A DNA stretch of 64,000 bases, taken from NCBI RefSeq assembly GCF_009831575.1, contig NZ_WUUT01000002.1:186001-250000 (forward strand). The letters run 5' to 3'. The position numbers and the translations under genes were made by a program. The notes below the pieces were generated by a model, which searched no databases, was not told the DNA's origin, and worked only from the letters and a program-made list of their open reading frames with translations. Position 1 is the first letter of the stretch. Every line of letters starts with the position of its first letter. Shown here piece after piece: positions 55,873 to 60,935 of the stretch. This DNA is from Halovenus carboxidivorans. GTDB lineage: Archaea > Halobacteriota > Halobacteria > Halobacteriales > Haloarculaceae.

Positions 55873-57798
55873 TCAGTCTGCGGACTCGTACAGCAGCGAT
55901 CCGCCGCTGGTCACGAGATAGCCCGTCCCCGTCAGCGCGACGCCGGTTCGGCTATCCCGGACGAGACCGAGTTCCTTCAGCGAGGCGACGACACTCGCCA
56001 CCCGACCGGTGTTCATATCGACGAGTGCCGGGAGGTTTCGGCCGTCGCCCGCGGAGTGCAGCGCATCCAGCACCTCCCGCTGTTCGTTCGACAGCGAGGC
56101 GTTGCGGGCCTTCCGTAGCTGTCGCTCGTGGTACTCGGTGAGGTACCGCGAGAGGATCTGCTTGTCGACCTCGTCGGTGGGACGGAGTTCCACCGTGACG
56201 ACGTTCGCGTTCACCCGGAGGTGGTGGATCGTCAGCCCCATCTCGTAGCCGACTTCCGACTCCATCGGCTTCTCTTCGAGTCCGACAATCGTCGAGAGCC
56301 GGATCCGAACGGGCAGGCCCTCCGAATCGGGGTCTTCGAGTGTGAGCGTCCTCGGGGTCGTCGAGAGAATCCGCCGCTCGGGTTCGATCTCCTCGGGGTC
56401 TTCGAGCCCTTCGGAGAGGTTCGCGGTGACTGTCTCGACGTCCTCGAGCAACGACGCGAACAGCGTCTCCTGGAACTCCCAGCCGATGTCGCGGGGCAGT
56501 TCGCAGACGACGATCTTCCGGTCGTCGTGTTCGTCGTTGTAGGCGATCCCGACCGTCTCGTCGAAGACACCCTTGAGCGGGTCCGGGACGTATCCCGGGG
56601 CGACGTCGACAATCGAGTCGAAGGGGATCCGGAGCGTGTCGGCGACGCCAGTCTGGTCGCGCGAGACGAGCACGACCTCGCGCTGTCCGAGCACGACCGA
56701 TCCGCCAGTGGGGCGGCCGCTCTCGATCCCCTGACCGGCGAACCGCGTCGAGACCGACACCTGAACCGGCGAGGTGACCTGATCGCGGTACTCCGTCGCC
56801 GTCTCCTCGGACCCGACCCCGGCCTCGCCGGTTTCGGCGTACTGGTGGCGCTGGGACTCGCGTCTCCGAACCCAGTCCGACAGCGACGCGCTGACCAGTT
56901 GTGAGCCGCTGTCGGCCGCCAGTTCGCGGAGGTCGATCCGGGCGGGATCGAAGGTGCTGTCGGCGGGCGGTTCGATCGGCCGCGGGTTGCGCCCGAGCGT
57001 GTCGACCTCCTCGGCGCGGTTGCCGCGCCAGCGAGCGTCGTACTCGGTGGGGTCGAACGGTTCGCGCTCGAAGGGGTTGGGATCGCAGACCAGCCGGTAC
57101 TGCGAGTTCTCACCGCAGATGTCCGGTGCGGCGTCCGGACCGAGCGAGCGGTACATGTACTCCCGGAGTTCGCCGCCCCCGACGCGGGCGAACGCACCGG
57201 CGGTCTCCTCGTCGATTGCGAGGAGGTCTGCCAGCCGACGCGGGCCGAAGCCAGCCGTCGCGAGAAACTCCGCGGCCGAGGCACGGAGCGCCTCGGTGCT
57301 GATCGCCTCGGTGTCCAGTTCCCAGGCGTTCTCGGCGGCTTCGGTGACGATCCGTTCGATCCCCGCAACGTCGGTATCGAGATAGGGCCGCTCGCCGAGG
57401 ACGCCGTAGAGCGCGGCGGTCAGCCGTCGCGACCAGCCGAACGGGATCGTTCGCGCTCCGTCGGCCCCGTCGGGCGGGGACCAGCAGGTCTCCGCGACAA
57501 TCTCCTCGACGCTGCGGTCGCTTCCGGCCTCGGTTTTGCGCCGCCGGGCAGTCGCGAAACAGTACCGACACGCGCAGGGGTCCCGGGCGGGGACGTGTAC
57601 CTCCCCGCGCTCCCAGTCTACCCAGTCCTCGTGGAGGTGAGTGATCTCCTCGGGGCGGAGTCCGAGTCGTCCCATCAACAGGAGTACGTAACAGGCGTCG
57701 CGTCGACGAGTTTCGTCTTCGATCGTCAGCCCGCCGAGATAGAGGCTATACAGCCCCTCAGCAGAGAGCGCCTCCGCGGGCGACAGCGATGAGGCCAT
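55873..57798 (-). CDS. Inactivated tyrosine-integrase domain fused to a CheF-like/winged-helix domain
   Basis: The 641-residue protein has two parts. Residues about 1-225 follow haloarchaeal tyrosine integrases: RRDACYVLLLMGRLGLRPEE (Arg48), a C-x-C-x2-C cluster in RDPCACRYC, ARTIPFGW and TEALRASAAEFLATAGFGPR (Arg172). The other active-site residues are replaced: the His before Arg172 is Glu169, the Tyr position is Phe203, and the Lys and His/Trp are missing. Residues about 340-560 match the neighbouring CheF-like protein (DTLRIPFDSIVDVAPGYVPD, IRLSTIVGLEEKPMESEVGY). Residues 570-641 form a winged helix (LSNEQREVLDALHSAGDGRN). The linker (225-340) has a second Cys pair. It is probably a DNA-binding regulator; function unknown. 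Confidence 0.75.
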   Translation of the reverse strand: MASSLSPAEALSAEGLYSLYLGGLTIEDETRRRDACYVLLLMGRLGLRPEEITHLHEDWVDWERGEVHVPARDPCACRYCFATARRRKTEAGSDRSVEEIVAETCWSPPDGADGARTIPFGWSRRLTAALYGVLGERPYLDTDVAGIERIVTEAAENAWELDTEAISTEALRASAAEFLATAGFGPRRLADLLAIDEETAGAFARVGGGELREYMYRSLGPDAAPDICGENSQYRLVCDPNPFEREPFDPTEYDARWRGNRAEEVDTLGRNPRPIEPPADSTFDPARIDLRELAADSGSQLVSASLSDWVRRRESQRHQYAETGEAGVGSEETATEYRDQVTSPVQVSVSTRFAGQGIESGRPTGGSVVLGQREVVLVSRDQTGVADTLRIPFDSIVDVAPGYVPDPLKGVFDETVGIAYNDEHDDRKIVVCELPRDIGWEFQETLFASLLEDVETVTANLSEGLEDPEEIEPERRILSTTPRTLTLEDPDSEGLPVRIRLSTIVGLEEKPMESEVGYEMGLTIHHLRVNANVVTVELRPTDEVDKQILSRYLTEYHERQLRKARNASLSNEQREVLDALHSAGDGRNLPALVDMNTGRVASVVASLKELGLVRDSRTGVALTGTGYLVTSGGSLLYESAD

Positions 57799-57912
57799 TG
57801 GTGGCAGTGGGACCTGCCAGAATGAAAATCTATCCCTGCCGGCCGAGCACCCGTTCTCTCGGCGGCGAAAACCGGCGAGACGTATTTGTTCGAGATCGTT
57901 CTACTCGTAAAT
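57799..57912. promoter_or_regulatory. Divergent promoter region of the integrase-CheF fusion and small protein genes
   Basis: A GTATTTG box (57882-57888) lies about 28 bp before the 57913 start. On the minus strand AGATTTTC (57831-57824) lies about 29 bp before the fusion gene. The 114-bp space links expression of the two genes. Confidence 0.4.
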
Positions 57913-58188
57913 ATGGCAGACGAGACAGTTCGGGTCTGGCTGGTCGAGCGGACCTACTCGGACGACGAGCAGAACCTGATCATCCTCACGTACGCGACGC
58001 CCGACGGGGAGCAGTATTTCCGCAAGGAGCGAGCGCTGACCTCCTACACCGACACGCGCGGGACGACCGCGGCAGTCGACGCCGACCCCGAGAATCTCGG
58101 CGCGGTCGATGACGAGCGACTCCGACGGCGGTACGCCGCCGAGGCCGAGCGGATGGCCAGCGTCCACGACCCCGACGACGAGATCTGA
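57913..58188 (+). CDS. Small conserved protein between two CheF-like genes
   Basis: A 91-residue acidic protein, MADETVRVWLVERTYSDDEQ at the start, then LIILTYATPDGEQYFRKERA and an Arg/Glu-rich helix DERLRRRYAAEAERMASV. The first 45 residues look like a small beta-meander and the rest a helix. No named family is recognised. It is divergent from the fusion gene and convergent with the CheF-like gene (31 bp between stops). A TATA-like box supports the start at 57913 over an in-frame one at 57886. Confidence 0.6.
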   Translation: MADETVRVWLVERTYSDDEQNLIILTYATPDGEQYFRKERALTSYTDTRGTTAAVDADPENLGAVDDERLRRRYAAEAERMASVHDPDDEI

Positions 58189-59146: not shown

Positions 59147-59512
59147 AGCTTGGCGATTCACACCCGGTCGTAAAATTCCCACCTATAGATATCACGTTTG
59201 ATAATTGGAGGGGAATCAGGCGGTTCGTGAGACAGACGCGCCCGCGAGCGCCAGTTGTCGGGGACGGAGACGGCCGATATCGAGGGAACGAACCTCCGAG
59301 AAATCGCCCGAACGAAGCGCGAAGAGCGGTATTTTCCGGTGGCAGAAGGGCTTTACTTCCAAGTCACCAACCGTCTAATAGCGGTTATACCCCCTTTCAG
59401 GCGCCTCTTCGGGATATCGTGTCGTTGCGGTTGGTGCGTATGCTACCGCAAAGCACCAATTTATATACGAGAGGCACTAACGAAAGGTAAACACAACCAG
59501 TGTGAATATCCA
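59147..59512. promoter_or_regulatory. Intergenic region with psmA promoter
   Basis: This 366-bp space contains the CheF-gene promoter at its left end and, at 59460-59467, TTTATATA, a strong TATA box about 49 bp before the psmA ATG, implying a leader of about 20-25 nt. An AACCG/CGGTT dyad with an 8-nt loop lies at 59371-59388. Nothing else convincing is seen; the open frame running through it has no family features. Confidence 0.5.
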
Positions 59513-60253
59513 ATGCAAGGAAACCAACAACAGCAAGCCTACGACAGAGGAATAACGATCTTCTCGCCGGACGGTCGGCTCTACCAGGTCGAGTACGCCC
59601 GCGAGGCGGTCAAGCGGGGCAGCGCGAGCGTCGGTATCAGGACGGCGGACGGAGTCGTTCTCGCGGCGGACCGACAGACTCGCTCGCCGCTGATCGAGGA
59701 GGAGAGCATCGAGAAGATCCACGAGGCGGACGAACACGCCGGGATTGCGAGCGCGGGTCACGTCGCAGACGCGCGCCAGCTCGTCGACTTCGCTCGCCGC
59801 CAGTCTCAGGTCGAGCGTCTGCGCTACGACGAGCCGATCGGGATCGAGACGCTGACCAAACGGACGACCGATCACATCCAGCAGTACACCCAGACGGGCG
59901 GCGCGCGGCCGTTCGGTGTCGCGCTGCTGATCGGTGGTATCGAGGACGGCGAGCCCCGGCTGTTCGAGGCCGACCCCTCGGGCACGCCCTACGAGTGGCA
60001 GGCAGTCGCCATCGGCGGCGGCCGCGAGGACATTCAGGACTACCTGGAAGAGGAGTACACGCCCGAGATGGATCTCGACGGCGGCGTGACCCTGGCGCTT
60101 GAGGCGCTCGCAGAGGGCACCGACGAGCTCGACGCCGAGAGCGTCGACATCGCGACCGTCGACACGGAGTCCGAACAACTACAGTCACTCTCCGGCGAGG
60201 AAGTGACCGACTACGCGGCCGAGGCCGACCTCGGAGGTGAAGACGATGAATGA
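59513..60253 (+). CDS. psmA: Proteasome alpha subunit
   Basis: The 246-residue subunit forms the outer rings of the 20S core and the gate for substrates. It has the alpha-type N-terminus YDRGITIFSPDGRLYQVEYA (gate helix H0 and the YDR motif), VLAADRQTRSPLIEEESIEK and LYQVEYAREAVKRGSASVGI. No catalytic Thr is present, as expected. The acidic tail is haloarchaeal. Start choice: MQGNQQQQAYDRG begins at the family start; the frame is open upstream but lacks family features. It overlaps psmB by 8 bp. Confidence 0.96.
   Translation: MQGNQQQQAYDRGITIFSPDGRLYQVEYAREAVKRGSASVGIRTADGVVLAADRQTRSPLIEEESIEKIHEADEHAGIASAGHVADARQLVDFARRQSQVERLRYDEPIGIETLTKRTTDHIQQYTQTGGARPFGVALLIGGIEDGEPRLFEADPSGTPYEWQAVAIGGGREDIQDYLEEEYTPEMDLDGGVTLALEALAEGTDELDAESVDIATVDTESEQLQSLSGEEVTDYAAEADLGGEDDE
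60233..60240 (+). promoter_or_regulatory. Shine-Dalgarno sequence deciding the psmB start
   Basis: GGAGGTGA lies 5 bases before the ATG at 60246, inside the end of psmA. It is the best ribosome binding site in the window and favours 60246 over the in-frame ATG at 60237. Confidence 0.7.
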
Positions 60254-60935
60254 ACCAACTGACTTCCCACAGAACCCATACGAACCGGAACTCGGATCGT
60301 TCGAGGAGACCAGCGAACAGGACAGCGATGCCGTCGTCAAGACCGGCACCACCACGGTCGGTGTCAGCACCGACGACGGCGTCGTAATCGGCACGGACCG
60401 ACGAGCCAGCCTTGGGGGCCGGTTCGTCTCGAACAAGAACGTCACCAAGGTCGAACAGGTCCACCCGACGGCGGCGCTGACGCTGGTCGGCTCCGTCGGC
60501 GGCGCGCAGTCGTTCATCCGGACGCTCCGGTCGGAGTCGAATCTCTACGACAGCCGACGGGGCGAACCGATGTCGATTCACGCGCTGGCGACGCTGGCCG
60601 GGAACTTCGCCCGCGGCGGCCCGTTCCTGGCGATCAACCCGATCCTGGGCGGCGTCGACGACGAGGGCAGCCACGTCTACAGCATCGACCCCGCCGGCGG
60701 CGTCATGAAAGACGACTACACCGTCACCGGCAGCGGAATGCAGCTCGCACACGGTGCTCTGGAGGGCGAGTACGACTCCGACCTCTCGATCGAGGAGGCA
60801 GAAGTGCTCACTGCCCGCGCGGTCCAGGCCGCGACCGAACGCGACACCGGGTCCGGTAACGGACTCGTCACCGCGACGGTGACCGACGACGGCGTCGACA
60901 TCCAGGAGTACGACGCCGCCACTGACCTGCTGTAA
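60246..60935 (+). CDS. psmB: Proteasome beta subunit (catalytic)
   Basis: The 229-residue precursor has a 34-residue propeptide ending VVKTG, cut before Thr35 (TTTVGVSTDDGVVIGTDRRA), which becomes the N-terminal nucleophile of the inner rings. The lysine and aspartate of the active site are in GTDRRASLGGRFVSNKNVTK. Later segments GPFLAINPILGGVDDEGSHV and AHGALEGEYDSDLSIEEAEV are typical. With psmA it forms the 20S proteasome in one operon, translationally coupled through an 8-bp overlap and a strong ribosome binding site. Confidence 0.96.
   Translation: MNEPTDFPQNPYEPELGSFEETSEQDSDAVVKTGTTTVGVSTDDGVVIGTDRRASLGGRFVSNKNVTKVEQVHPTAALTLVGSVGGAQSFIRTLRSESNLYDSRRGEPMSIHALATLAGNFARGGPFLAINPILGGVDDEGSHVYSIDPAGGVMKDDYTVTGSGMQLAHGALEGEYDSDLSIEEAEVLTARAVQAATERDTGSGNGLVTATVTDDGVDIQEYDAATDLL

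Follow-up and report, generated by a model that had tools for sequence, protein, structure and literature searches.

CheF is known as the adaptor that couples CheY-P to the archaellum switch. The Methanococcus and Pyrococcus proteins form a dimer through the C-terminal domain, and in the Methanococcus structure CheY-P is bound by this domain, whose C-terminal carboxylate extends to the site of phosphorylation (PMC9126983). In 2009, genes of the CheF family were seen only in che regions, except for two H. marismortui paralogues, and deletion of OE2404R had weak effects only (PMC2666748). Tyrosine recombinases are represented by two kinds of described protein relevant to this study: MrpR, the master repressor of SPbeta, is a DNA-binding repressor with the recombinase fold and lost catalytic residues (PMC10516654), and the central recombinase of phiH1 and phiCh1 is reported to carry out tail-fibre inversion (PMC6471424).

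The window, a stretch of 64,000 nucleotides of Halovenus carboxidivorans, encodes a protein joining these two families. Judging from sequence comparisons and structural models, the fusion of a dead tyrosine-recombinase domain to a complete CheF is real and is found in several haloarchaeal genera. The open reading frame of 641 aa that the initial annotation had placed at 55873-57798 on the minus strand is present exactly as given. Its authoring model had known of no such description, and our literature searches likewise gave no earlier description of a CheF-integrase fusion, most of the apparent CheF matches in the integrase literature concerning, to judge by their titles, the gel method; the pairing appears to be undescribed so far. 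The features of the locus are as follows.

55873-57798, minus strand: fusion gene, 641 aa, comprising a dead tyrosine-recombinase domain, a linker and a complete CheF-like region (ORF list, Pfam, alignment)
57133-57798, minus strand: residues 1-222, tyrosine-recombinase catalytic-domain fold with the catalytic Lys, His, Trp and Tyr gone (alignment, model, profile)
57559-57639, minus strand: residues 54-80, with invariant H54, C75, C77 and C80, a putative structural metal site common to active relatives (alignment)
56794-57132, minus strand: residues 223-335, linker (EPFDP...NPRP...), which over its first ~85 residues shares homology with the one found in membrane-anchored recombinases (hhalign)
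55876-56793, minus strand: residues 336-641, CheF2-type CheF region of two PH-like domains and a C-terminal domain (Pfam, tree, model)
55876-56172, minus strand: residues 543-641, CheF C-terminal helical/winged-helix-like domain (profile, model; role from PMC9126983)
58220-59182, minus strand: neighbouring CheF-like protein P0002, 320 aa (Pfam, CheF tree)

Residues 1-225 had been read as following a tyrosine-recombinase pattern, and the domain does resemble these enzymes in both profile and fold. Pfam gave the single sequence a weak match, below the cut-off, to Phage_integrase (PF00589, residues 31-69, E 0.0015-0.009), and PHROGs gave weak integrase matches for the window protein and phrog_216 at E 3e-30 for an aligned solo relative. 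The family profile matched XerC-like, XerD and XerA chains of the PDB at E 2e-6 to 4e-5. The AlphaFold2 model of the N-domain (pLDDT 87) matched a staphylococcal integrase (3nkh, Z 15.4), XerA (5hxy, Z 15.2), 4a8e (Z 13.8), lambda Int (Z ~13) and Cre (Z ~12), and the MrpR/YopR chains 8a0a and 8bj6 were also among the matches (Z 10.8-11.1). These structural matches begin at model residue 6-8, inside the catalytic domain, and the core-binding domain is absent; judged by length in the alignment, the solo relatives apparently do without it too.

The active site was compared in an alignment of 33 proteins, consisting of 14 fusions and 19 unfused relatives (6 membrane-anchored and 13 solo recombinases). 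In the window protein R48 and R172 are kept, while Lys is replaced by P109, His by E169, Trp by I195 and Tyr by F203; the initial annotation had placed both active-site arginines and the Glu169 and Phe203 changes at these same positions, had also reported the loss of Lys and His/Trp, and had noted a C-x-C-x2-C insertion, which lies at C75/C77/C80. None of the 14 fusions retains Lys or Trp; His is lost in 13, Tyr in 12, R48 in five and R172 in two, and the active site is degraded in every fusion. Only the unfused relatives keep the catalytic set: K, both R, W and Y are intact in 19 of 19, with His changed in two. As aligned, the recombinase active site of the fusion is destroyed, and the domain is hence called dead. 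Because each of the 33 proteins has H54, C75, C77 and C80, the alignment suggests a structural site for a putative metal. R44, R116 and R125 are invariant.

The other half of the protein is a CheF. CheF-arch (PF04283) matched residues 365-556 at 43.7 bits against a cut-off of 25, and this CheF is very divergent, scoring 42 bits versus ~170-225 for the canonical copies of the same genome. The model of residues 333-641 (pLDDT 88) aligned with crystal CheF 7ovp over 257 residues (Z 14.9), with the two PH-like domains and the helical C-terminal tail domain present, and the sequence profile of the C-terminal region matched 7ovp at E 9e-22 and 7od9 at E 5e-12. The C-terminal ~300 residues were also correctly said to match the neighbouring CheF-like protein (27% over 305 residues, E 2e-26). 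The wording "CheF-like, winged-helix protein" holds for CheF; the winged helix belongs to CheF itself, as its normal C-terminal domain, and is no third module. A separate C-terminal winged-helix DNA-binding domain was considered and rejected, because in 7ovp and 7od9 the stretch aligned with it is the C-terminal domain of CheF, and a MarR-type winged-helix resemblance of the C-terminus was set aside as generic. In the CheF tree the CheF domains of the fusions form one clade (100/100) on the side of CheF2 (OE2404R type), away from CheF1. The whole C-terminal 306 residues are thus like CheF2 (OE2404R, PF04283/DUF439) in profile, fold, CheF2-type features and tree, whereas the ~335-residue N-terminal extension with its recombinase domain and the location outside che/arl regions set the fusion apart. 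The last ~12 residues of the window protein are unlike the ...VNx tail of CheF2 and most other fusions, and because this tail is absent, its CheY-P binding may be altered.

The suggested survey of haloarchaeal genomes gave the full-length architecture in 16 species, eight genus codes and two families, with the ORF intact in most; a sequencing error or the joining of two genes, which the initial annotation had named as a possible refutation, is rejected on this count. By the search tool's own genus and family codes (g and f), the fusions of family f1 are in g1 (three, including that of the window), g3 (one MAG), g5, g8 (two) and g13 (two), and those of f4 in g53 (three, one frameshifted), g66 (three) and g52 (one). 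Named carriers include Halosimplex aquaticum, H. salinum, Halohasta litorea, H. salina, Halonotius terrestris, a Halovenus MAG and Halobacteriaceae archaeon SHR40. The g3 MAG contig, 6.2 kb long and bearing the title Haloarcula, falls with Halohasta in the recombinase tree and in the CheF tree, a possible case of misbinning. The scan of named genomes gave no match with the single protein as query and gave matches with the alignment as query. When the whole order was searched, the recombinase family turned up in 93 of 392 genomes, and no further full-length fusion was recognised. In other genera, long open frames that precede CheF2 were considered as further fusions and rejected: the predicted CheF2 proteins (344-381 aa) are beside arlI/arlJ-like genes, and no second domain was seen. 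In several Haloferacaceae-like (f4) genomes CheF2 directly follows the archaellum ATPase and platform genes arlI and arlJ (L133-L140).

The distribution is patchy. The fusion gene is dispensable in some lineages, because in one genome (G202, L063:8004-10138) a frameshift breaks it between the recombinase and CheF halves, and in another (G137, L071:9141-9428 and L026) only a remnant is left, a short open frame in which the start of the recombinase domain runs straight into the CheF C-terminal domain. Canonical CheF genes are also present in 15 of the 15 fusion genomes checked. In family f1, where CheF is above the cut-off in 95 of 146 genomes, all nine fusion genomes are CheF-positive, for which the hypergeometric probability, near 0.02 and without phylogenetic correction, is suggestive only.

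The fusions also form one clade (100/99) in the N-domain tree, and because they do so in both the recombinase and the CheF trees, the fusion is, as far as these phylogenies tell, of single origin. Substitution ratios indicate that it is under purifying selection: the dN/dS of the N-domain is 0.13-0.42 in five species pairs, comparable to that of the CheF half, with the values of the g1 pairs approximate at a dS of about 1.1-1.2. The linker aligned by hhalign with that of the membrane-anchored recombinases over ~85 residues (probability 98.8, score 110), while 20 column-shuffled control runs all scored 11 or less. Because the two linkers are homologous, the simplest reading suggested by these data has an anchored recombinase exchanging its membrane tail for a CheF2 gene, or the reverse, with the direction taken from an unrooted tree. 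On this reading, catalysis would have disappeared no later than the base of the fusion clade.

The anchored proteins (e.g., G152, G225, and G021; 479-533 aa) share the N-domain and the homologous linker with the fusion, but they keep K, R, R, W and Y and carry a hydrophobic end instead of CheF. Among those inspected (L072:7875-9314, L069:7837-9438, L070:3964-5559, and L050:1471-2910), His is changed to Arg in two, and the C-terminal hydrophobic segments are apparently membrane-anchoring. We know of no description of this haloarchaeal family. Viral matches of the recombinase family include Int1 of phiH, phiCh1 and ChaoS9 and the HCTV-5 integrase, and plasmid integrases were also matched; identity to all these is mostly 26-37%, and Int1, the tail-fibre invertase of phiCh1 and phiH, is the nearest characterised viral relative found. 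The fusion is like the Int1/HCTV-5-type enzymes in its catalytic-domain-only size, G-R-L-G-L-R, H54, C-x-C-x2-C, W59/D61 and fold (features read in the solo relatives), and unlike them in its destroyed active site, C-terminal CheF and stable chromosomal location.

In the window the neighbours of the fusion are pth2, proteasome-like and truD-like genes, named from sequence, and the region is not one of chemotaxis or archaellum genes; the canonical CheF1 and CheF2 of the same genome are located in the che operon on C5. The surroundings of the locus are conserved within g1, g8, g13 and g53, and the neighbours differ between genera, so reading a function from a conserved gene neighbourhood was rejected. 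No che or arl genes were recognised among the neighbours across genera, and no defence-island context was noticed there. P0002 and the CheF half of the fusions of its own genus are sisters in the CheF tree (96/96, long branch), and in the two sister species no P0002 was found at this position; by its sequence it is probably a recent duplicate without the recombinase half. A small, divergently transcribed gene upstream of the fusion (57886-58188, plus strand), without a Pfam or NCBIfam match, is present in G111 and was not seen in G097, and two adjoining proteasome-subunit-like genes beside the locus (59255-60935, plus strand) are conserved in sister species.

The reading that we favour, tentatively and a little short of calling it probable, is that the fusion is a chromosomally inherited CheF2-type adaptor carrying the dead recombinase domain as a non-catalytic docking module. 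The CheF C-terminal domain would make the protein a dimer and may interact with CheY-P or a response regulator related to it, and the two recombinase folds, brought close by the CheF dimer, would hold a partner, which we take to be a protein rather than DNA. In effect, chemotaxis output would be routed or titrated either to some target besides the archaellum switch or to a switch in modified form. Non-catalytic docking is favoured because the CheF half amounts to a complete dimerising adaptor in genomes that also have canonical CheF, and because the recombinase half keeps its fold and metal-site residues and has lost its DNA-facing chemistry. It also fits that no active close recombinase relative was found in the genome of the window, which leaves no obvious recombinase partner. 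Counting against docking are the differing neighbours between genera, the missing ...VNx tail, the modest size of the charge shift, the dispensability of the gene in some lineages and the patchy distribution. The main rival, which we consider unlikely, is a DNA-binding regulator, in which the dead recombinase would bind a specific site and the CheF half would dimerise and tune it via CheY-P or a different response regulator; transcription or nucleoid position would thereby follow the chemotaxis state. MrpR/YopR is the model for it: a recombinase fold with lost catalytic residues, found among the structural matches (Z about 11) and serving as a non-catalytic factor, as is proposed for the fusion. 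DNA binding is demonstrated for MrpR and hypothetical for the fusion, and MrpR differs in having the core-binding domain, in keeping the catalytic Lys and Tyr and in lacking CheF. The strictly kept fold and H-C-C-C site, the three invariant arginines and R172, kept in 12 of the 14 fusions, fit a DNA-binding protein, but the invariant Arg residues may be structural, and the losses of Lys (all fusions), R48 and R172 and the missing core-binding domain argue against it, as does, weakly, the charge. Net charge per residue of the N-domain is -0.042 in the fusions versus about -0.007 in the relatives, a modest shift (Mann-Whitney p 4e-4, without phylogenetic correction), and the mean charge of the predicted DNA-recognition helix, by our own assignment the equivalent of Cre helix J, is -1.4 versus +1.0 in the solo enzymes. 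With domain and helix acidified and Lys, Trp and Arg lost, partner binding is therefore at least as likely as DNA binding, which keeps some probability because the shift is moderate and the helix is equally acidic in two TM-anchored relatives that retain K, R, R, W and Y. The initial view of a recombinase linked to a chemotaxis-adaptor fold is thus borne out as a conserved fusion of a dead domain to a CheF-type protein; of its "DNA- or partner-binding module", the recruitment for DNA binding is not supported as written (Lys and Trp gone in 14/14, R48 in 5, R172 in 2, and a domain and helix more acidic than in active relatives).

The remaining explanations fare less well. A functionless fused gene drifting to loss would account for the frameshift in G202, the remnant in G137 and the patchy distribution, yet the ORFs are intact in most of the 16 species, the dN/dS of the N-domain is below 0.45 and residues are invariant across genera, so we regard a decaying relic as improbable. 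More improbable still is a domesticated decoy, whose dead domain would pair or compete with active recombinases of the same family from haloviruses and plasmids and block inversion or integration, the CheF half only dimerising. The fold and surface elements are kept with catalysis lost, and the closest viral and plasmid matches are just such enzymes (Int1 of phiCh1/phiH/ChaoS9, the HCTV-5 integrase and plasmid integrases), but identity to them is low, no defence island was noticed nearby, and the retention of a whole CheF is left unexplained. A still-active recombinase using an alternative nucleophile can be practically dismissed: two fusions still have the Tyr and most retain R48 and R172, but Lys and Trp are gone from all, Tyr from 12 of 14 and R172 from two, and there is no consistent column for a substitute nucleophile.

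As a conserved CheF2 derivative of single origin with a decommissioned recombinase domain, the fusion would put the CheF fold to a second use away from the che regions, and would add to the cases in which a dead tyrosine recombinase is retained for its scaffold. It is a bolder and quite unlikely idea that the recombinase of a mobile element was captured by a chemotaxis adaptor to address DNA, giving CheY-P or some other response regulator a direct action on the archaeal chromosome; if true, there would be a transcriptional or nucleoid branch of archaeal chemotaxis signalling. The active solo, active-looking membrane-anchored and dead CheF-fused proteins together form a series for studying the domestication of mobile-element enzymes.
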